Below, piece after piece: positions 5,107 to 41,454 of a DNA stretch of 41,454 bases. Below the pieces are notes generated by a model. The model ran no database searches. It was not told the DNA's origin and saw only the letters and a list, made by a program, of their open reading frames with translations. How positions within the stretch are numbered: position 1 is the stretch's first letter; every line of letters begins with the position of its first letter. The translations under genes and the position numbers were made by a program. The DNA is from a bacterium (GTDB taxonomy: Bacteria > Patescibacteriota > Saccharimonadia > Saccharimonadales > UBA4665): NCBI GenBank assembly GCA_021829145.1, contig JAJZOE010000032.1, positions 1-41,454 on the forward strand. Reading direction: 5' to 3'.

Positions 5107-5298
5107 TTATTTAGTCCTGACGTGTAATGAATGAAGTCCTAGCGCCCCTAGAACGGTGTCTATGAGAGTTAGTTCGGCTCCCGTAAGCTTAATGACTCCA
5201 TTGCTGATTAACGCCTGAACTACGATAAGTAATACTGGGGCGATTAACGGCATATAGTGCGTGTATAGATTCTTAAATGTTACCGATGGAAGTGTCAT
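5107..5298 (-). CDS. Small membrane protein, holin candidate
   Basis: A 63-aa protein with a hydrophobic helix at about 15-32 (M-P-L-I-A-P-V-L-L-I-V-V-Q-A-L-I), a second hydrophobic stretch around 38-55, and a basic R-T-K end. Size, topology and position in a lysin operon suggest a holin-like or antiholin-like role, but at least three other small membrane proteins compete for that job here. ATGA overlap with the PLD-like gene upstream. Confidence 0.6.
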   Translation of the reverse strand: MTLPSVTFKNLYTHYMPLIAPVLLIVVQALISNGVIKLTGAELTLIDTVLGALGLHSLHVRTK

Positions 5299-5894
5299 TT
5301 GGTACCTTTCATTTGAGCTAAAGCTGTTTGGTGTTCAACCGCTAATCTAGCTTTTAGCCTGTTTATATAAATTAGATTAGCCGAAATTGTAAGTGTGTTG
5401 TTTTGGTTTTTAAAACCAGGAATAGAATTAACGCCAGGAATAAGGGAAATACCAATACCCTCACCTGCGTTTGACCAGTTGACAGAACCCTCATAAGCTA
5501 GAGCTAGCCCAACACATACACCAGCTTTAGTATGGCTGATTTGATGCGTAGCGGATTCTCCTATGGCGATATCGTTTAAGAAATTAGGGTCAGATGTTTC
5601 ATCGGCGGATAGGATTGCTTTTTCGTGAACTCCGCCAGCTTGAGACTTGTCTAGTGTTCCCTGTACAAACATATTGGCGTTTTTAAGTTGAGCCATAATA
5701 TCGCTATTTAATACTGGGTCATCGTAGCCATACATATTAAAATCGTGCTCTAAGTCCTCATTGGTCAACAGATAGTGCATGATACCATGAACATCATCTC
5801 GTCCGACGAAAAAGATATAGCTCTCTCCATAGCCAGCAGTTAGTTTTCCTGAAGCAGTGAATTGGGCTAGTGGTTGAAGTTTAGGATTATCCAT
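5295..5894 (-). CDS. Phospholipase D/nuclease-superfamily protein, divergent
   Basis: A 199-aa protein. A V-Q-G-T-L-D-K-S-Q segment (77-85) and I-G-E-S-A-T-H-Q-I-S-H-T-K followed by E-G-S-V-N-W-S (about 111-141) match the single-HKD PLD/Nuc layout and align with the paralogue at 7455-7940. The HxK pair (H121, K123) is kept, but the aspartate expected after four residues is replaced in the C-V-G-L stretch. It may be catalytically altered or have become a binding protein. Its place in the lysis operon suggests action on phospholipid, on DNA released at lysis, or in binding Pup-tagged targets. None is proven. Confidence 0.7.
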   Translation of the reverse strand: MDNPKLQPLAQFTASGKLTAGYGESYIFFVGRDDVHGIMHYLLTNEDLEHDFNMYGYDDPVLNSDIMAQLKNANMFVQGTLDKSQAGGVHEKAILSADETSDPNFLNDIAIGESATHQISHTKAGVCVGLALAYEGSVNWSNAGEGIGISLIPGVNSIPGFKNQNNTLTISANLIYINRLKARLAVEHQTALAQMKGTK

Positions 5895-5902
5895 ATTAAC
5901 CC

Positions 5903-6127
5903 CTACTGGCCGCCCTGCTGAACAAACCCTCGAACGAAGGTGGCGGCATCGTTTTCCTTGAGCAGGTCATCTATCTCATTTAATATGGCGTCTATGGCTT
6001 CGTTGTCTACGGCCGGCTTGACAGCGGTCTTGCCAGCGTCTACAGCAGCTTGCTCTTGAAGTTCTTTGGCTTCTTCGTCGCTTATTTGTCTTCGGCTTTC
6101 TTTACTTTTTCTGACGTATTCGCTCAT
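5903..6127 (-). CDS. pup: Prokaryotic ubiquitin-like protein Pup homologue
   Basis: A 74-aa protein: a charged, disordered N-terminal half (R-K-S-K-E-S-R-R-Q, then Glu/Ala-rich), and a C-terminal half with E-I-D-D-L-L-K-E-N-D (51-60) and F-V-R-G-F-V-Q-Q-G-G-Q (64-74). This is the Pup signature: the helix binding the proteasomal ATPase Mpa/ARC, and the GGQ end that Dop deamidates to GGE before PafA links it to lysines. Cellular Pup is usually about 60-70 aa. No Dop, PafA, Mpa or proteasome gene is present, so the host machinery would be needed. Start ATG 6127 has AGGAG upstream and overlaps the stop of the GH25 lysin (ATGA), so it is coupled to the lysin. It could tag host proteins, or compete with host Pup. 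Confidence 0.88.
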   Translation of the reverse strand: MSEYVRKSKESRRQISDEEAKELQEQAAVDAGKTAVKPAVDNEAIDAILNEIDDLLKENDAATFVRGFVQQGGQ

Positions 6128-7080
6128 TTTCTAACTCCTATAAATGTTAAAATGAAGTTCCATATTTGTTCCCAGAAACCAGTTGATTGTTGAGGTGAAG
6201 TGTTTAGTGTTGAGTTACTTATTTCTTGGATAGAATCTAAGGTACTTGCTTTGTCCTGCACGTTAGGCGTATTAGTTTCTGAGATGTTTGTTTGATTATT
6301 AACAACTGGCTCTGGGACGACTTGGGGCGTAGTAGTTACTACCGTAGTTGGCTCTGTGGCTTGCACAGGAGCGGTCTGGACTGATTCAACTGTTGGGGTG
6401 GTGGTTGGTACTACTGGAGTTACAACAGGCACTTGTACCGATTCAGTCGAGGGTAAGGACTGAACCGGAGCAGGTACCCCGTAACTTTCGAATAGTGTTC
6501 TATCTCCAAACACATGGTCTACATCTACTGGACCATTAACACCAGGAACAGTAGTAGTTCCGTACTGTTGTATAACGTATTGATAAGGGAAGTTTGGAAT
6601 AGGCGACGTGTAAGGATAGCTTGGTCCCGCAACCCAGAGTGGACAACCGCCGATTGTTGCCCAGTTAAACTCTTTGAAGTTGGATATATCCCCATAAATA
6701 AAGGTATGAGCACCAGTTTTTTCTAAGATAAAGTCTGCCCATGCTTTACCCGCTTGAACTGGGTCAATGTGATTAGCTAGCATGGCTTGGATATTAGCAG
6801 GCTCAAAGTCCAGTCCAACACATTCTCCTGGCTGTAAATTACTACCAACCCACTGCATAAACCACTCAGCTTCTGCTAACGGACTGTTTATATCAAATCT
6901 AGCAACATGGTAATAGCCCCTAGCTAAATCAACACCTCTTGCACCTTGACGATTATGTGAGAATTGGCTATCAAGGATATTTATACCCTCAGTAACTTTA
7001 ATAAAGCAAAAATCAACGTGTTGAACTAGAGTATTAAAGTCTGTGTCTATTTGAGAATAAGCTAAGTCTACGCCGTTCAT
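6124..7080 (-). CDS. GH25 lysozyme (muramidase endolysin) with Thr/Pro linker and Trp-containing tail
   Basis: A 318-aa protein. Residues 1-195 form a GH25 N-acetylmuramidase-like barrel: N-G-V-D-L-A-Y-S-Q, F-I-K-V-T-E-G, R-G-Y-Y-H-V-A-R, G-L-D-F-E-P (catalytic Asp/Glu strand), L-W-V-A-G-P and Q-Q-Y-G. A long Thr/Val/Pro/Gln linker follows (about 200-290), then a hydrophobic end, F-W-E-Q-I-W-N-F-I-L-T-F-I-G-V-R-K. There is no signal peptide. It would cleave the glycan backbone of the host wall. The C-terminal helix resembles the tail of the second GH25 protein (7942-8847) and may anchor to wall or membrane. Confidence 0.85.
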   Translation of the reverse strand: MNGVDLAYSQIDTDFNTLVQHVDFCFIKVTEGINILDSQFSHNRQGARGVDLARGYYHVARFDINSPLAEAEWFMQWVGSNLQPGECVGLDFEPANIQAMLANHIDPVQAGKAWADFILEKTGAHTFIYGDISNFKEFNWATIGGCPLWVAGPSYPYTSPIPNFPYQYVIQQYGTTTVPGVNGPVDVDHVFGDRTLFESYGVPAPVQSLPSTESVQVPVVTPVVPTTTPTVESVQTAPVQATEPTTVVTTTPQVVPEPVVNNQTNISETNTPNVQDKASTLDSIQEISNSTLNTSPQQSTGFWEQIWNFILTFIGVRK

Positions 7081-7129
7081 ATTTATTTCTCATATTTTGG
7101 ATTTGTATATGTAGGAGGGTAATGATTAT

Positions 7130-7444
7130 TTACAGATATTTTTTAACAAATGCCAGATGAGTAAAATAGCCCAAAATTGATGCTCCCGATAGGGTGATTG
7201 CACCTACTTTAATCGAAGTATTGTTGGTGCTGAAAAAACCTACCCACGTAGCTACTTGAACCGCTAAATGAAACCAAAAAGCAGGACTCTTATAGTCTTT
7301 GCTGATTTCACTAACTACTTTTTTAACATCGCTTACCACTACATTGGGGGATGTTGGGGCTGCTAAAGGCGCTAAAGTTGCTTGTGCCGGCTGTATATTG
7401 TCCGGCGTAGTTGTTAAATTGTTTAGTAGTTGTGTTGGTTGCAT
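7130..7444 (-). CDS. Holin-like membrane protein
   Basis: A 104-aa protein. ATG 7444 is chosen because AAGGAG sits at ideal distance; an earlier ATG at 7468 has no such site. After a Pro/Ala-rich soluble part and an amphipathic helix (V-K-K-V-V-S-E-I) come two hydrophobic segments, F-W-F-H-L-A-V-Q-V-A-T-W-V-G-F-F and I-T-L-S-G-A-S-I-L-G-Y-F, ending K-K-Y-L. Two helices next to a lysin gene suggest a holin, but the family is not recognised. Confidence 0.65.
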   Translation of the reverse strand: MQPTQLLNNLTTTPDNIQPAQATLAPLAAPTSPNVVVSDVKKVVSEISKDYKSPAFWFHLAVQVATWVGFFSTNNTSIKVGAITLSGASILGYFTHLAFVKKYL

Positions 7445-7454
7445 TGCAATCTCC

Positions 7455-7940
7455 TTAGTTATTTTCACTATTTATTATCCAACTTTTGATGGAATTAGCA
7501 ATTGTGGTTAAATCTTGGGCTACCGAACTGTTATTTTCAATAAAGAAAAAGTTATCTTCTAGCCCAGCAACTTTTGTAAAATTGAATGACCCATATTCGG
7601 CATGTATACCATCGACTACTGAAAATTTATCATGCACTATATGATGCATACTTGACTCGCCAATTGTCATATTTATCCCTGAGGCTTTTAGAGAGGCTAT
7701 GACAGGTTTTTCGCTTGAACCCGTGCTTTGACTTTTATCCAGAACTAAAGTTACGACAACCCCCTTATTTTTAAGCTCAGGAAGGATAGTTTCAAAAGCT
7801 ACAAGATTAAAAGAATAATCAACTATTAAAAGCGATGTTTTTGCTGATTGCCAAAAGGCGGTTAGTCTCTCCAGTGCTACTTCTTGCGTATCTGGTGCTG
7901 GAGTATGCCATAACTCCCTACCGTCTGGTAGAATAGTCAT
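7455..7940 (-). CDS. Phospholipase D/Nuc-type single-HKD enzyme
   Basis: A 161-aa protein. V-V-V-T-L-V-L-D-K-S-Q (about 61-71), then I-G-E-S-S-M-H-H-I-V-H-D-K-F-S-V-V-D-G (93-111) contains an intact HxK(x4)D motif (H103, K105, D110) followed by G-S-F-N-F-T. Single-HKD proteins of this size act as dimers on phosphodiester bonds of phospholipids or DNA. No signal peptide. It lies between two GH25 genes, so it may attack membrane lipid during lysis or degrade host DNA. Paralogue of the divergent PLD-like gene at 5295-5894. Start ATG 7940 lies one base after the upstream stop. Confidence 0.82.
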   Translation of the reverse strand: MTILPDGRELWHTPAPDTQEVALERLTAFWQSAKTSLLIVDYSFNLVAFETILPELKNKGVVVTLVLDKSQSTGSSEKPVIASLKASGINMTIGESSMHHIVHDKFSVVDGIHAEYGSFNFTKVAGLEDNFFFIENNSSVAQDLTTIANSIKSWIINSENN

Positions 7941-7941
7941 T

Positions 7942-8847
7942 TTAGAACAACCCCCTAATCCAGTTCCATATCCTAGTCCACCAACCGACCGAAAGACTTA
8001 TGCGTGTAGTGGAGTTTTGGGAGGTATTTGTGGTTGAGGTGCTAGGCTTGTCCGGCTGTCCAGTCGTAACTGGTGGCGTGTATGTTTCTGTAGGTGTTTG
8101 TTTTGTTGGTACGGTTGGTGGCGTAGTTGGAGTTACATAGACCGTGGTGGAAGTTGTGCTTGGAGCCACCGTAACGGTTGTTGAGGAAGTGCTCGGTGCT
8201 GAGGTGGTGATAGGTGAAGACTGAGGCGTAGAAACGATTGGAGCGGGGGCAGCAGTAGTTGAGGGTGCATGATAGCCGTAAGTATAGCTTTTAAGCGACT
8301 CAAGAGTACCGAAATATTCATCCGTGTCTGCGCCATTAACTATCGGCCCCTGCTGAGCCACATAGACGCCCACGCCCGTAACGTTTTGGCTAAATGGTAC
8401 GTCTGGAGCGGCAATCCACTCACTACAGAGAGCAAAGACTGGACTCCAGTCATACTTCTGCCTGAGATAACGATCTATATACACCCAAGGGTAGCAACCC
8501 GTACTTCTATGATGGTCCGTAACGAAAGTCAGTACGTCCTGGACTAGGTTCGGACCATCTATCTCTACGTCAAGGGCATAGCCGTCACCTACCGCTAGGG
8601 GTGAAACGCATCTTAGAAACCATGCGGCTTGAATATTGGGGTCAACCGCAGGAACAAAGAAGTGGTACATGAACGGGATTTTGTTGTACTTTTTGGCACT
8701 GGCGTAATTATTGTCTAATTGAGAGTCAATGTAGGGCTGCAAGCTACCCGTGTAAAAGCCCGACGCTTTCATCATCACCATTGGATCTGTGTTTGTCGCC
8801 ATGTTATAGTTGCCGTTAGCGTAACTTATATCGACGAAAGGTATCAT
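7942..8847 (-). CDS. GH25-like muramidase with Ser/Thr/Pro linker and Trp-rich tail
   Basis: A 301-aa protein. Residues 1-195 form a divergent GH25-type barrel: I-P-F-V-D-I-S-Y-A-N-G, F-M-Y-H-F-F-V-P, A-L-D-V-E-I-D-G (putative catalytic Asp/Glu pair), G-C-Y-P-W-V-Y-I-D and W-I-A-A-P. A roughly 90-residue Ser/Thr/Pro linker follows, ending in S-V-G-W-W-T-R-I-W-N-W-I-R-G-L-F. It shares plan and tail motif (I-W-N-x-I) with the GH25 gene at 6124-7080, although the barrels are quite different. AGGAGG precedes ATG 8847. One could be the endolysin and the other a wall-degrading virion or accessory enzyme. Confidence 0.8.
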   Translation of the reverse strand: MIPFVDISYANGNYNMATNTDPMVMMKASGFYTGSLQPYIDSQLDNNYASAKKYNKIPFMYHFFVPAVDPNIQAAWFLRCVSPLAVGDGYALDVEIDGPNLVQDVLTFVTDHHRSTGCYPWVYIDRYLRQKYDWSPVFALCSEWIAAPDVPFSQNVTGVGVYVAQQGPIVNGADTDEYFGTLESLKSYTYGYHAPSTTAAPAPIVSTPQSSPITTSAPSTSSTTVTVAPSTTSTTVYVTPTTPPTVPTKQTPTETYTPPVTTGQPDKPSTSTTNTSQNSTTRISLSVGWWTRIWNWIRGLF

Positions 8848-10088: not shown

Positions 10089-10146
10089 AGCCCCGACTTG
10101 CTCAAGGGCTTGCCATGATTATACCAATCGTATATTCTTATGGCAA
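10089..10146 (-). promoter_or_regulatory. Promoter and 5' hairpin cassette of the lysis operon
   Basis: On the minus strand TTGCCA (10146-10141), a 17-base spacer and TATAAT (10123-10118) form a strong sigma-70-type promoter. Seven bases later AGCCC pairs with GGGCT (10110-10089) around a loop containing GAGCAA, followed by an A-interrupted run of Us, then the first gene at 10077. No minus-strand gene lies upstream within 4 kb, so this hairpin cannot be the terminator of a preceding gene. It overlaps the upstream region of groES on the other strand. Confidence 0.75.
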
Positions 10147-10448
10147 TGACTAACGCCAATGAGCCTAATTTAAACCCCGCACCAGGATATATCCTAGTTC
10201 AATTGGGTGACGTATATTCTGGTATTAAGATGCCTGAAGGAAAATATGATACTCGTACTGATGGCATTGTACTCAAAGTTAACCCTCAACCTCGAACTAA
10301 AGACCATGAAATGTTAACTAAATGGGCACAGGGATTGATAGGGAAACGAATATATTGGATGGAATTTCGCGAGGGAAAGCGAATTAATTTTGGTGGTCAA
10401 CCATACGCTACTATTAGGATTGAAGACGTCGAGAGTTGGGAAGAATGA
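10140..10448 (+). CDS. groES: Co-chaperonin GroES homologue
   Basis: A 102-aa protein. N-P-A-P-G-Y-I-L-V-Q-L is the first strand. G-I-K-M-P stands where GroES has the hydrophobic tripeptide of its mobile loop; then D-G-I-V-L-K-V-N, a long G-K-R-I-Y-W strand and Y-A-T-I-R-I-E-D-V at the end. It should cap the phage GroEL, whose gene follows after one HNH gene. Start ATG 10140; ATG 10146 is possible. The region before it has no clear Shine-Dalgarno site but offers TATACC and TATATT as -10 elements, so a very short leader is possible. Its stop overlaps the HNH start (ATGA). Confidence 0.85.
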   Translation: MAMTNANEPNLNPAPGYILVQLGDVYSGIKMPEGKYDTRTDGIVLKVNPQPRTKDHEMLTKWAQGLIGKRIYWMEFREGKRINFGGQPYATIRIEDVESWEE

Positions 10449-10936
10449 AAAAAATTAAGCTAAATAACGGTCAATATGTTTTGATTGATGACGAGTATTA
10501 TGAAGAATTAACTAAATATAAATGGTATCTGAACAAATTGGGCTATGCCACTACAGGGATTTGGTGTAAGGAAAATAAAAAAACTAAACAAGTTTTATTA
10601 CACAAAATAATAATGAATACCCCCAAGGGATATTGCGTAGATCATATTAATGGCAACAAATTAGATAATAGGCGACTTAATTTAAGATTGGCTACCATTG
10701 CGGAGAACGTGAGGAACCAAAAAAGAAACAAGTCAAGTATTAGTGGCTATAAAGGGGTGCAGACTAATTACTCCTGTCCAAATCGTCCCTACGAAGCTGC
10801 CATTACTTTTTGTCGTAAACAAATACATATATTAAGAAGTGCAGATAAAGAAGAATGTGCTTGGGTATATGACCAAGTTGCTATGCAATTATTTGGAGAG
10901 TTTGCTAATCCTAACTTTGGAGGTTGGAATGTCTAA
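10445..10936 (+). CDS. HNH homing endonuclease between groES and groEL
   Basis: A 163-aa protein. The N-terminal part has the L-N-N-G-Q-Y-V-L-I-D-D-E-Y-Y fold that precedes many phage HNH enzymes. The core is L-L-H-K-I-I-M-N and C-V-D-H-I-N-G-N-K-L-D-N-R-R-L-N-L-R (HNH). S-G-Y-K-G-V is followed by Y-E-A-A-I-T, an AP2-like DNA-binding segment. Start ATG 10445 overlaps the groES stop, and the gene overruns the groEL start by 8 bases, so it sits seamlessly in the operon. It is probably a free-standing homing nuclease, cutting copies of the locus that lack it. A TTG at 10436 is a less likely start. Confidence 0.88.
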   Translation: MKKIKLNNGQYVLIDDEYYEELTKYKWYLNKLGYATTGIWCKENKKTKQVLLHKIIMNTPKGYCVDHINGNKLDNRRLNLRLATIAENVRNQKRNKSSISGYKGVQTNYSCPNRPYEAAITFCRKQIHILRSADKEECAWVYDQVAMQLFGEFANPNFGGWNV

Positions 10937-12479
10937 AGAAAGCCGAACTGTTGTATCTGAATCAGTAATGCACGCTAAGATCGCTAGTGGTGCTAGGAAA
11001 GTCTATCTACTGGCTAAGGCAGGTTATGGCCCAGGCGCGGGCAATGTCATGCTTGAACAGAAGTATGGCGACCCTATGTTATCTCGTGATGGTGTATCAA
11101 ATATTCGTAGACTATACCTTGAAGAACCAACAGAGAATATGTCTGCTAGAGCTATAATTCAAGCCTCAAGTATGAACAACCGCAATGTAGGTGATGGTAC
11201 TACTGCTGTAGCTATTCTTACATATCTCTTATACACCTCAGCTCGTAAACTTGTAGTATCCGGCTATGGACGTATGGAAGTAGCTAAAATGTTAAAAGAT
11301 GTTCAGTACAAAATTATTGAGGAAGTTGAAAAACTATCTATCCCATTTACTGAGCAAATGTTACATGCTGTTGCAAAGACTTCGACAGGCGATGACGCTA
11401 TAGCTAGTATGCTAGATGATATTTTCAAAGACCTAGGCGAAGACGCCGGCGTATTGGTTGAGAGTTTTGGGGGTACGGACACCTATTCAGAGATAGTCGA
11501 TGGCTTTTATTTTAACAAGGGCTTTACTGCCGTCGGGCTGACCAATCAACCATCTAACTTAAGATCATTCCACGAAGGCAAAGTACCTATCCTAATATCT
11601 GAAAAACGACTTCTTACCAAGACAGATATCGGTCCACTGCTTCAGATACTGGTTAAAAATAATGTTAAAGAGGTTATTTTGGTTGGCGAGTGTAGCCCTG
11701 AGGTGTTAGAGGTAATTGCCGCTAACTGGCTAGGTGGAGTAATAACAACTGTACCTGTTGACGTACCATATTATGAGGGGCTTAGAACTATATTTATGAA
11801 CGACCTTGCTTTACTTACTGACGGTGTTGTCTTAACTCCGGGCACTGATCCTAACGACTTCACGGTAGACATGCTAGGCTATGCCACTAAGGTAGTGATT
11901 GATGAGCGTTCTACTAAGATAATAGGGGCTGATGGATCGTCTGAAGCAGTCAAAGAACGTATTAAAGAACTTAAGAGTGAACTTGCTAAAAGTACTTCGC
12001 AAGTAGATATAGACGCTATTAGAGAGAGAATATCTAGGTTAAACGGTAAACTAGCAATCTTACATGTTGGAGGTGCTACCGAGTTTGAAAGGGAAGAGCT
12101 TAAACTAAGAGTTGATGACGCTATTTCAGCTATTAGAGCTGCTTACAAGAGCGGTGTTGTGCCTGGTGGTGGCGTAACTCTAGCCAGAGCTGATAGCGGA
12201 CAATTTCAAGACGCATACAAAAAACTTCTCAAACTCCTATCTAGTAACAGTGGTCTAAACCCTGAGCGTATCTTACAAGATATTGAAAAAGCCAAAGACT
12301 GGTTTGGATATGATCTGAGAAATATGACCGATAAACCTGTTGACCTTAGAACTATCGGTATCTTAGATCCAACAGTCGTAGTAACCGAGATTGTAAAAAA
12401 CGCTACATCTATAGCCTCATCTCTTATAACGGTTAGTGCTGGTACAGTTTTTGTGGATAGAGAGTCAAAAATCGATTGA
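10929..12479 (+). CDS. groEL: Chaperonin GroEL homologue
   Basis: A 516-aa protein (cellular GroEL about 540-548). Equatorial and ATP-site motifs are present: G-P-G-A-G-N-V-M-L, the G-D-G-T-T-A loop (with the catalytic-type Asp), K-L-A-I-L-H-V-G-G-A-T-E and L-R-V-D-D-A. G-V-V-P-G-G-G-V-T-L and G-I-L-D-P-T-V-V mark the C-terminal equatorial half. The Gly-Gly-Met tail is absent. The apical domain is divergent. ATG 10929 is chosen for GGAGG at 10919-10923. With groES it forms a complete chaperonin pair, probably for folding capsid or tail proteins. It is flanked downstream by a new promoter. Confidence 0.95.
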   Translation: MSKESRTVVSESVMHAKIASGARKVYLLAKAGYGPGAGNVMLEQKYGDPMLSRDGVSNIRRLYLEEPTENMSARAIIQASSMNNRNVGDGTTAVAILTYLLYTSARKLVVSGYGRMEVAKMLKDVQYKIIEEVEKLSIPFTEQMLHAVAKTSTGDDAIASMLDDIFKDLGEDAGVLVESFGGTDTYSEIVDGFYFNKGFTAVGLTNQPSNLRSFHEGKVPILISEKRLLTKTDIGPLLQILVKNNVKEVILVGECSPEVLEVIAANWLGGVITTVPVDVPYYEGLRTIFMNDLALLTDGVVLTPGTDPNDFTVDMLGYATKVVIDERSTKIIGADGSSEAVKERIKELKSELAKSTSQVDIDAIRERISRLNGKLAILHVGGATEFEREELKLRVDDAISAIRAAYKSGVVPGGGVTLARADSGQFQDAYKKLLKLLSSNSGLNPERILQDIEKAKDWFGYDLRNMTDKPVDLRTIGILDPTVVVTEIVKNATSIASSLITVSAGTVFVDRESKID

Positions 12480-28788: not shown

Positions 28789-29889
28789 CTAATTGCTCGT
28801 GATGTTAATTAACTTACCGTTACGTCGTGGTTGGCCACAAACTAGGTTACCCATGAGCATTAACAGACCGACTGCACCATACTGGTTTACAGGACTCATC
28901 ATTTCACGGAATTGCCATGCGCTTGGGAATGGTACATCGTCGTAGAAACCTTCTGTAACTTCGACTGCGGAGCTAATCTTCTGCAAGTCCGGGCTTCGGA
29001 GTGCATAAAAGTCAATGTAGTGTTCGTTTAGCCAGAAGAATGTACCAGAAGTTGCCATGTCGTCAGCGATCATGTTCCTTGCTCGGTAGTCAAGAACGTT
29101 GAATCCGGCGGCACCCTTTAGTGCTTGGTCGCCACTAGGTACTGCAACTCCGGGTGGAAGTCCACCGTCAATTCGGTTGTAGCCGCCCATACGTACAGTG
29201 TCGTATCGGGCAGATACCATTGGTTGGATAATACCTTCAATGAATGTCCAGATAGCTTTGGTAGTAAGACCGATTGTTGGGCTTTCTGAAGTTGAGCCAG
29301 CGGCTGATACGTTATCGAATTCGCTTGATAGGTAGTCTAGGGTGATGATTCCTGAGTTTAGAGCAGTTAGGTCAGTTACATCAGCGTTTACGAATGGTGA
29401 GGTTGAGCGGGTAATGCCGCCGTAAGCTGAGGAGTTAGTGCCATTGTCTACTATAAGACCAAGACCGTCAAAGTCTTTGCCGTTACCAAATCCGTATAAA
29501 ATGCCACCGATGCCAACGAGTCCCGAAATCTTAGCCTCGTCCATACGAGTACTAAGTAGTCTTAAGACCTGCTTCTCGTTGTTGGCGTTAACATCTCGTT
29601 CGATACCAGGTACAACGACTGATTGCTCATAAGCGGCAACGTACCATGTGAACAAGCGAGTATTGTCGGTAGCGGCAGTTGGGAAGGTGTCCATACCACT
29701 GAATGAGCCGCCAGTTGTACTGTTAGCAGTTTCAATCGGTAGGTTAAGAGTAACTCCGCTCCATTCTTTAACGTTTGTAAGAACACGAGCCGTCCAAATG
29801 TTCGAGTTGTTTATCTGGTCGACTAAGCGAGGCAGAATCTCCTGATAGGTGATGTCTGTTACTCTGTCGGTAAAAACCATGCCAGCCAT
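28789..29889 (-). CDS. Major capsid protein (HK97-fold candidate)
   Basis: A 366-aa protein. N-terminal helix, S-G-V-T-L-N-L-P-I, then F-P-T-A-A-T-D-N-T-R-L-F-T-W-Y-V-A-A-Y-E-Q-S-V-V-V-P-G (an E-loop/P-domain-like pair of strands), V-L-R-L-L-S-T-R-M-D-E-A-K (spine helix), A-D-D-M-A-T-S-G-T-F-F-W-L-N and G-A-V-G-L-L-M-L-M-G-N-L-V at the end. It lies between the scaffold-like and decoration-like genes and has the strongest promoter of the virion cluster. No protease gene is nearby, so maturation cleavage is doubtful. Confidence 0.85.
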   Translation of the reverse strand: MAGMVFTDRVTDITYQEILPRLVDQINNSNIWTARVLTNVKEWSGVTLNLPIETANSTTGGSFSGMDTFPTAATDNTRLFTWYVAAYEQSVVVPGIERDVNANNEKQVLRLLSTRMDEAKISGLVGIGGILYGFGNGKDFDGLGLIVDNGTNSSAYGGITRSTSPFVNADVTDLTALNSGIITLDYLSSEFDNVSAAGSTSESPTIGLTTKAIWTFIEGIIQPMVSARYDTVRMGGYNRIDGGLPPGVAVPSGDQALKGAAGFNVLDYRARNMIADDMATSGTFFWLNEHYIDFYALRSPDLQKISSAVEVTEGFYDDVPFPSAWQFREMMSPVNQYGAVGLLMLMGNLVCGQPRRNGKLINITSN

Positions 29890-33763: not shown

Positions 33764-34030
33764 TCACATCGCATAGCGGTTTGGTGGCTCTTCATAACTT
33801 GTTATATAAATATTTGTTCTGACTCGGCAACGACGGCATAATTCAGATAGAACTGCCGTGTCTGCCTTGAAAACTTGAGCCGGCGCACCAACATTGGTAA
33901 TCCGTCTTACAAGTAGTCCCTTAACCTCAATAAGCTTCTGACCGCATGACCCGCAAACTTCCATTTCCCATGAGGGGTCATTGACATTGTTGTAGATATA
34001 TAGGCTAATCTCTCTCATTGATAACGCCAA
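33764..34030 (-). CDS. Zinc-ribbon-like small protein
   Basis: An 88-aa protein with C-G-S-C (about 26-29) and C-R-R-C (about 65-68), which could chelate one zinc. The start (34030) overlaps the large terminase end; M-R-E-I at 34018 is an alternative. Located between large terminase and portal. Function unknown. Confidence 0.65.
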   Translation of the reverse strand: MALSMREISLYIYNNVNDPSWEMEVCGSCGQKLIEVKGLLVRRITNVGAPAQVFKADTAVLSELCRRCRVRTNIYITSYEEPPNRYAM

Positions 34031-35469
34031 TCTTTACCCTTAGCTTTGGTTGTTTCTTTTAGTGCTTTGGTCATATCGAAATTGTACTGCAAGCGATCGT
34101 TAATAACCATATAGCCCTCTTTGTTTGGCTTAGAGGCTGGCTTAGGAGTAACTGCATGAAATTGGCCACCGTTAGTAATTCTGTATATCCCATATGTTAC
34201 CGAGTCATATGCGTGATCTTCGGCTTCGGGGTCGATCTCTTCGGGTTTATGTTCATCATAGGGGAGTGCTGGTATGGTTCTGATTAAATTACGGCAAGTA
34301 TCGAAGACTAGCATATAGGGCATTCCATCGGGCGAGTCAGCTAGGACGTTATGCATTAGCCCTGCTCTATTCATTTTGGCTTTATGACTTTGAGCTTCAG
34401 CCGGCAATATTGTTATATTCACGTGAAGTTTATCAAACACACGTCTAAACTGCTGCTCAATGGGCTGTGACCCTCCAAGATTACTATAGGCATCATGGGG
34501 CATAATCAACGCTTCGATAGGCTCGTCTTTTATAATCTGCCCGAGTTCATTAGCCCACCAGTCGGGACGCTTCTCGTTTATATATATCTCTCTGTAAACA
34601 ATAAAATGGCGAACACCGAACTCATTTTCTGGAGTAACAGCAATCCAATGTGCGCTGGCTGGATCGTTATAGCCCCAGTCAAAGCCTATAAACAGGCGAC
34701 ACTGTTCTTTATTAAAATCAAAAGCAGGGATAACATGCTTGTCTACTCTCCACTCTTTAAATACCTGGCCGACAAATATATTCCAATCACCGAACCGCCA
34801 TGCTTTATATAATGCTTCGTCGGTAAACTTAAGGGCATCAAGCTGTTTTACATAGTCGGGGTCGGCTGTTTGTAATATAGGGTTATCGTCAATGGTTGCT
34901 GGTATGAAAACACGTTTTTTGCCGTCTTCGCCAATAAATGGTTTGTTTGGAGGGGCTGGGTCAATAAATCTATCTTTAACCCACATATGCCCTACACCTC
35001 CCGGGTTAGTCGTGGCAAAGACTTGAGGTTTCAATTCAGGTATTGTAGTCCTGGCTGATGATATAAGTTTCATGTACCTATCAAGCGTGGCTATCTGGTT
35101 AAGCTCTTCGATAAGTATTTTGTGATACTCATGACCCATATACTTAGTGTAGGTGTTGTCATCTTTTAGGTGGCCAGTTCTTATCAATGCGCCAGAAGGA
35201 AAGCGAATAATCGCAGGCTTGCCAGTTATGTCAGCATGAAGCCCGGAATACATATATCTAGCACGCTCAATCCAGTCGCTTAGATCGTCCGCATTACGCC
35301 TAATAACTAATCCCTGAAAGCGAGGGTGCTTAACGTATTCAGTCAGCCAAATTAAGCCTGCAAACGTCTTACCGCCTCCCCGAGCGCCACCATAAAGTAT
35401 TTCACTTATACTATAGGGCTGCTGAAGAGCGTATGTCTGTTGACCTTCATTTGGTTTTAGTATTATCAT
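34015..35469 (-). CDS. terL: Terminase large subunit
   Basis: A 484-aa protein. ATPase: Walker A G-G-A-R-G-G-G-K-T (about 27-35), Walker B K-I-L-I-E-E-L-N (about 115-122), and an A-T-T-N-P-G-G motif III (about 152-158). RNase H-like nuclease: F-I-G-F-D-W-G-Y-N-D-P (about 248) and D-H-A-Y-D-S-V-T-Y-G near the end supply acidic residues. It powers DNA packaging and cuts the concatemer. Its start overlaps the small subunit gene. Full length for the family. Confidence 0.95.
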   Translation of the reverse strand: MIILKPNEGQQTYALQQPYSISEILYGGARGGGKTFAGLIWLTEYVKHPRFQGLVIRRNADDLSDWIERARYMYSGLHADITGKPAIIRFPSGALIRTGHLKDDNTYTKYMGHEYHKILIEELNQIATLDRYMKLISSARTTIPELKPQVFATTNPGGVGHMWVKDRFIDPAPPNKPFIGEDGKKRVFIPATIDDNPILQTADPDYVKQLDALKFTDEALYKAWRFGDWNIFVGQVFKEWRVDKHVIPAFDFNKEQCRLFIGFDWGYNDPASAHWIAVTPENEFGVRHFIVYREIYINEKRPDWWANELGQIIKDEPIEALIMPHDAYSNLGGSQPIEQQFRRVFDKLHVNITILPAEAQSHKAKMNRAGLMHNVLADSPDGMPYMLVFDTCRNLIRTIPALPYDEHKPEEIDPEAEDHAYDSVTYGIYRITNGGQFHAVTPKPASKPNKEGYMVINDRLQYNFDMTKALKETTKAKGKDWRYQ

Positions 35470-41015: not shown

Positions 41016-41039
41016 TCTTAACTAAGGAGGGAGTACAGA

Positions 41040-41454
41040 TGAGCAAAATTGTTAGAACACCAACCAGAGCTGAGGGCGGTATTACTGAAGATGAAAAAAA
41101 GCAGATGGATTTAATTACCCAGAAGTGGATAAAAAACGCTTTTAGAACCGAACCGATTGACAAAGATAAAATAACCAAAGCAATTAAAGACCTGTACAGG
41201 GTTTCAGGCTTAAAAGAACCTAGAGTTGTTATAGCTCCTAGTCCTTATGTTATGGCACTAGCTTATGGACTATCTGCTGGAATATGGTATTTACGTAAAA
41301 AAAATAAAGAGGTAAATGACGCAACCGCTGACGCAACCGCTGACGCAACCCGTGACGCAACCGATGTCGCAACCTATGGCGCAACCCGTGGCGCAACCTA
41401 TGACGCAACCCGTGACGCAACCTATGACGCAACCGCTGACGCAACCCGTGACGC
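41040..41454 (+). CDS. DUF6745-type repeat protein, N-terminal part (runs off the window)
   Basis: AAGGAGG lies before ATG 41040. At least 138 aa: a helical domain (about 1-60), R-V-V-I-A-P-S-P-Y-V-M-A-L-A-Y-G (about 62-77), a short basic stretch R-K-K-N-K and then D-A-T-x tetrapeptide repeats to the window end. It continues on the circle into the gene at 22-696. The repeat blocks assembly, which explains the break. Function unknown. Confidence 0.82.
41318..41454 (+). repeat. 12-bp coding repeats (GNC-GCA-ACC-NNT), at least 11 copies
   Basis: Codons 2 and 3 (GCA ACC) are invariant. Codon 1 is GAC, or GTC/GGC (only its middle base changes). Codon 4 is GCT, CGT, GAT or TAT (always ending in T), giving Ala, Arg, Asp or Tyr. 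The array runs past the window end. Confidence 0.95.

Follow-up and report, generated by a model that had tools for sequence, protein, structure and literature searches.

An orphan pup gene in the lysis block of a Saccharibacteria-type phage and its possible use by a host PafA/Dop-family enzyme

We report that a phage contig binned with a small genome of the Saccharibacteria type encodes a genuine Pup, the small protein which some bacteria attach to other proteins as ubiquitin is attached in our cells, and that the same bin contains a chromosomal enzyme of the PafA/Dop family. The contig, referred to here as the window, is the whole stretch of 41,454 nucleotides that was analysed. From the comparisons given below we put at about even the chance that this orphan Pup serves as a tag with which the host PafA/Dop-family enzyme modifies proteins late in infection. 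Many host regulators are phage targets, and the supply of a bacterial ubiquitin-like tag by a phage is apparently unstudied; a literature search that took in few subscription papers and no bioRxiv preprints returned no paper on a phage Pup and none on Pup in CPR bacteria.

The phage gene encodes a genuine Pup

The open reading frame at 5903-6127 on the minus strand encodes the 74-amino acid product MSEYVRKSKESRRQISDEEAKELQEQAAVDAGKTAVKPAVDNEAIDAILNEIDDLLKENDAATFVRGFVQQGGQ, whose C-terminus reads VQQGGQ. It matches both PF05639 (Pfam Pup; E=2.4e-13, 51.2 bits against a cutoff of 27) and TIGR03687 (NCBIfam pupylate_cterm; E=3.6e-11, 42.9 bits against an equivalog cutoff of 41.45), and in a phmmer search of the PDB the top six matches were all Pup chains. 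The original prediction that the product follows the Pup consensus up to its GGQ end, for which a Pup-family HMM search had been named as the check, is borne out by these scores, and the match is far beyond chance. Pups have been described as proteins of approximately 50-90 residues carrying a C-terminal G-[EQ] signature (Iyer 2008, PMC2588565), and the window Pup has both this length and this ending.

The C-terminal signature I-D-D-x-L-x-E-N ... F-V-x-x-[FY]-V-Q-x-G-G-Q is the same as that of actinobacterial Pup (PF05639, TIGR03687), from which the window Pup differs in being phage-borne with no enzyme nearby, in having a one-residue insertion that lengthens the linker before F-V, and in belonging to a host lineage without Mpa and 20S. 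The invariant columns of the helices that bind the Pup enzymes and Mpa are all retained. The window Pup thus appears to possess all that a Pup needs, namely a helical segment that binds PafA/Dop, a Gly-Gly-Gln end and an N-terminal half that is flexible; free Pup is largely disordered.

The lysis block is duplicated and its second copy holds pup

The start codon of pup overlaps the stop codon of a GH25 muramidase gene as ATGA (6127-6124), just as had been predicted, and an AGGAG ribosome site stands upstream. This muramidase (GH25 #2, 318 aa, 6124-7080; PF01183 E=1.8e-18, phrog_291 endolysin E=7.1e-28) belongs to a block of GH25, PLD and small hydrophobic protein genes that is present twice in the window (5107-8847, all on the minus strand), with pup in the second copy. 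The same copy contains a PLD-like protein of 199 aa that begins 8 bp after pup (5295-5894) and a candidate holin of 63 aa (5107-5298), a hydrophobic protein with no family match in Pfam. The first copy consists of GH25 muramidase #1 (301 aa, 7942-8847; PF01183 E=1e-8), homologues of which were found in three genomes (G299, G302 and G321), a PLD-family protein with an intact HxK(x4)D motif (7455-7940; PF13091 E=1.5e-12) and a candidate holin of 112 aa (7130-7468), for which hydrophobic segments speak and which has no Pfam or PHROG match. The two PLD proteins are paralogues (32% identity, E=5e-12 by BLASTP), and the two muramidases are 26% identical (E=5e-7). The HKD motif of the second PLD protein is degenerate, its aspartate having been lost, and the first PLD protein also matches the DrmC (DISARM) models, probably through a shared PLD fold only.

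The best promoter-like match upstream of this minus-strand operon is TTGCCA-N17-TATAAT at 10118-10146 on the minus strand, with TG before the second hexamer; it agrees with the consensus at 11/12 positions, a score that describes resemblance and not function. Divergent from the lysis operon are GroES-like (10140-10448) and GroEL-like (10839-12479) genes, which are conserved in most relatives covering that region. Low-complexity proteins are encoded elsewhere in the window, with a Gly-Tyr-Asn-Asp repeat (1378-1713) and an ATRDATYDAT repeat (41039-41454), and repeats of the NSG type occur in a related phage fragment (L045).

The phage and its probable host

The window is an entire contig (C70) of MAG G000, a small CPR-like genome of 924 kb that is 73% complete and 3% contaminated. 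Its major capsid protein (28789-29889, minus strand; phrog_9953 E=1.5e-55) shares 55% identity along its entire length with that of TM7 phage DolZOral124_53_65 (MG269973), the nearest named relative, which was associated with a TM7 genome when recovered (PMC7739484). The terminase large subunit (34015-35469, minus strand), identified by tblastn to annotated phage terminases, is 40% identical to that of the same TM7 phage and 41% identical to a fragment in a MAG of the same genus (G015). The structural genes of the window are therefore related to those of a TM7-assigned phage, which places it in the Saccharibacteria (TM7) phage group. The two phages have a Cpn60 gene in common, whereas DolZOral124_53_65 has no Pup and has other lysis genes (amidase, lysozyme-like).

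Given the kinship of capsid and terminase to the TM7 phage, together with the terminase relative in the same-genus MAG, we infer that this is a phage of bacteria in the Saccharibacteria-type lineage to which the MAG belongs. As the MAG is incomplete and slightly contaminated, the phage may have been mis-binned, and gaps in the MAG may hide genes for Pup, Mpa or 20S. A side observation concerns locus L022 (10271-12202), where the terminase is split by an intein-like insert and an overlapping open reading frame resembles a homing endonuclease.

A PafA/Dop-family enzyme without Mpa in the host lineage

The original prediction that the phage carries no ligase, Dop, Mpa or proteasome gene was upheld in the open reading frame lists, in Pfam searches of selected frames and in genome-wide scans with PF03136, PF00227 and TIGR03689. 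On another contig of the MAG (C36), within a bacterial neighbourhood, we found a 485-aa protein of the PafA/Dop family (PF03136 E=1.5e-67). Its NCBIfam scores of 187 bits for PafA and 186 bits for Dop both lie far below the equivalog cutoffs, and as the two are equal an assignment as Dop from PDB scores was withdrawn. The aspartate of the PafA motif YLDV, which we take to be the catalytic base, aligns with that of YLDL in this enzyme. No cellular Pup was found in the MAG besides the phage copy.

Across the host order, Pup is present in 17 and PF03136 in 54 of 295 genomes. With the MAG itself left out, 15 of the 16 genomes with Pup also contain PF03136, compared with 53 of all 294 genomes (P=1.5e-11), and in several genomes the two genes are adjacent; on the strength of this co-occurrence, host-order Pup goes with a PafA/Dop-family enzyme. 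Most of the host-order enzymes of the family (L012, L010-L019, L112-L131) are nevertheless orphans, with neither a Pup nor Mpa detected. Neither the host PafA/Dop-family enzymes nor the host Pups match any PADLOC defence model, and a defence role for the enzymes accordingly finds no PADLOC support.

Among 41 related genomes none has Mpa above the TIGR03689 cutoff; matches below it occur in nearly all of them and were rejected as FtsH-like (approximately 620-640 aa, with scores far below the cutoff). For the 20S core there is no PF00227 match in the MAG (73% complete), and 20S-like proteins are encoded in only 2 of the 41 genomes, neither of which is the MAG. The predicted delivery of tagged proteins to a host proteasome is thus unlikely here. 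Pupylation in Corynebacterium likewise operates without 20S subunits, the ATPase gene having been kept (PMC3511204), and it differs in this last respect from the host order described here, which has no Mpa above cutoff. Host-order genomes with Pup and PafA/Dop genes and with neither Mpa nor a proteasome would offer a simple setting in which to study non-degradative pupylation.

Recent gain of pup, most likely from the host order

We found no Pup in 25 capsid- or genome-related phage records, seven of which are IMG/VR contigs of 38-48 kb and near full length, nor in four further terminase relatives and the same-genus MAG, so that all 30 relatives, phage records and MAGs together, lack it. Close relatives share the lysis block of GH25, PLD and small hydrophobic protein beside GroES/GroEL and have it without Pup, so that the survey of related phages proposed at the outset did not recover the same gene beside GH25. 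In both G+C and GC3, pup is the second highest of the 73 genes, a G+C signal of only about 2 standard deviations. The absence of Pup from the relatives and its high G+C for this phage together indicate that pup was gained recently.

With respect to origin, the window Pup has 23 residues up to its C-terminus when counted from the conserved I-D. Only two cellular Pups, one from the same genus as the MAG (L007) and one from the same order (L008), share this length; in every other cellular Pup examined, and in each of the 24 phage Pups, the segment measures 22 residues. The window Pup also scores higher against a profile of host-order Pups (57.3 bits) than against one of phage Pups (45.1 bits), and since the two profiles overlap in leave-one-out scores this is support and not proof. 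The cellular Pups of the host order, rather than actinophage Pups, are most likely the source. Their pairs with PafA/Dop-family genes (L005-L008, L107, L109-L111) resemble the window in the 23-residue tail of L007 and L008, in giving the best profile score and in the lack of Mpa; they differ in that the cellular genes are chromosomal and stand beside a PafA/Dop-family gene, whereas the phage pup stands alone.

Pup recurs in unrelated phages

No characterised phage Pup was known to the original prediction, which holds in so far as we found no paper on one; the gene itself is annotated in Streptomyces phage Dagobah (MT711977; Pup QMP84414, beside the endolysin) and present in IMG/VR. The paper on Dagobah (PMC7650747) makes no mention of Pup. 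Profile scans of IMG/VR gave 34 contigs with Pup, which may include host DNA and in which gene calls at high-G+C loci represent simple picking of open reading frames; ten of these Pups were checked and all ten lie above the Pfam cutoff. Profiles were needed to find them, as the window Pup used as a single query against viral sequences gave no match. Dop and Mpa are absent from the DNA around all 34 loci. Two other candidates were dropped: in MT835496 ('Bacteriophage sp.') the Pup belongs to an Mpa-Pup-Dop cluster of actinobacterial type (L021, 4865-9558) and is probably bacterial contamination, and Erwinia phage matches to residues 38-65 were partial and weak (E=0.1).

Many of these loci have phage genes near Pup, which include a terminase or portal (L030, L037, L160, L164), thymidylate synthase (L038), a helicase (L034), an exonuclease together with dCMP deaminase (L036), an endolysin (L039, L040, L147) or a holin (L140). 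The order endolysin-Pup-primpol is kept in three Dagobah-type phages at approximately 46-78% identity, and one pair of phage Pups gave an omega of about 0.11, indicative of purifying selection. The 24 distinct phage Pups divide evenly between a GGQ end (12) and a GGE end (12), with GG[QE] intact in all. Pup is therefore a recurring phage gene for which a lysin neighbourhood is frequent and not general. The coupling to a lysin that had been proposed for the window stands as ATGA adjacency, which is positional only, given the very different neighbours elsewhere and the lysis blocks without Pup in the relatives.

Possible roles of the phage Pup

In our reading, a phage of the Saccharibacteria type has recently acquired pup, most likely from its host lineage, by insertion into a lysis block that had been duplicated, where the gene occupies the second copy. 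Pups are defined by covalent linkage to lysines through PafA once Dop has deamidated them. The chromosomal PafA/Dop-family enzyme of the host would deamidate and/or ligate the phage Pup, which would be attached to proteins of the infected cell, probably late, as its location among the lysis genes suggests, with a presumed benefit to the phage. Since neither Mpa nor a 20S core belongs to the host lineage, the tag would most likely alter the activity of host proteins or block them, or else compete with the cell's own pupylation, with no delivery to a proteasome. The idea that the phage redirects host proteins or sequesters host factors, which formed part of the original prediction, remains sensible where it concerns hijack of, or competition at, the PafA/Dop-family enzyme that this host possesses, and is unlikely where it concerns Mpa, which it does not.

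Competition alone could be the purpose, such that phage Pup would act as a decoy that occupies the host enzyme and blocks cellular pupylation without tagging, and this would pay, for instance, where the pathway of the host is directed against phages or governs survival. That phages carry Pup without its enzymes fits such a role, as does the patchy occurrence of cellular Pup and PafA in the host order, which is often seen for accessory or defence genes. A pure decoy, however, need not keep the GG[QE] ending found in 24 of 24 phage Pups, the host genes lack a PADLOC defence match, and in the MAG no cellular Pup was found with which to compete; we regard the decoy role as unlikely without being far-fetched. 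Rather improbable in our estimate is that pup is a host gene acquired by chance, not yet lost and of no use to the phage. Its absence from all relatives searched, its atypical G+C and its position in a duplicated and rearranged block would all suit a mere passenger, and with no relative carrying pup the selection on the window copy has no comparison. Yet the gene has a clean start and a ribosome site inside an overlapping operon, retains all the conserved Pup residues, and belongs to a family that recurs under purifying selection in unrelated phages.

Marking of proteins for Mpa and 20S is how Pup works in actinobacteria (PMC3511204), and Dagobah infects Streptomyces, so that proteasome hijack could hold for the actinobacterial Pup phages; for the present host, with no PF00227 match in the MAG, Mpa in 0 of 41 genomes above cutoff and 20S-like proteins in 2 of 41, we consider it very improbable. 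It seems scarcely probable, too, that Pup tags the neighbouring lysins or PLD proteins of the phage itself, thereby timing lysis or marking virion proteins. The ATGA coupling to GH25 #2 speaks for such a function, and Pup adjoins the endolysin in the Dagobah lineage and lies near an endolysin (L039, L147) or a holin (L140) in others. Against it, the remaining phage Pups sit beside terminase, thymidylate synthase, dCMP deaminase or helicase genes, the relatives have lysis genes without Pup, and lysis blocks are common insertion sites.

Extending our preferred reading, in which the host enzyme uses the orphan Pup as a tag, it is possible, and we suggest it only tentatively, that phages of widely different lineages use orphan Pups to take over host pupylation, and that in Saccharibacteria-type hosts they feed or jam an undescribed proteasome-independent pathway. 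With orphan pup genes in dozens of phages, Streptomyces and phage Dagobah already provide a system in which the question can be tested. The Dagobah Pup is, like the window Pup, a phage-borne orphan beside an endolysin; it differs in coming from an unrelated phage, in its 22-residue tail and in its GGE end, owing to which it needs no deamidation. The Pups of L164/L165 and of L166 are identical save for a final Glu or Gln, which amounts to a naturally occurring switch of Dop dependence.
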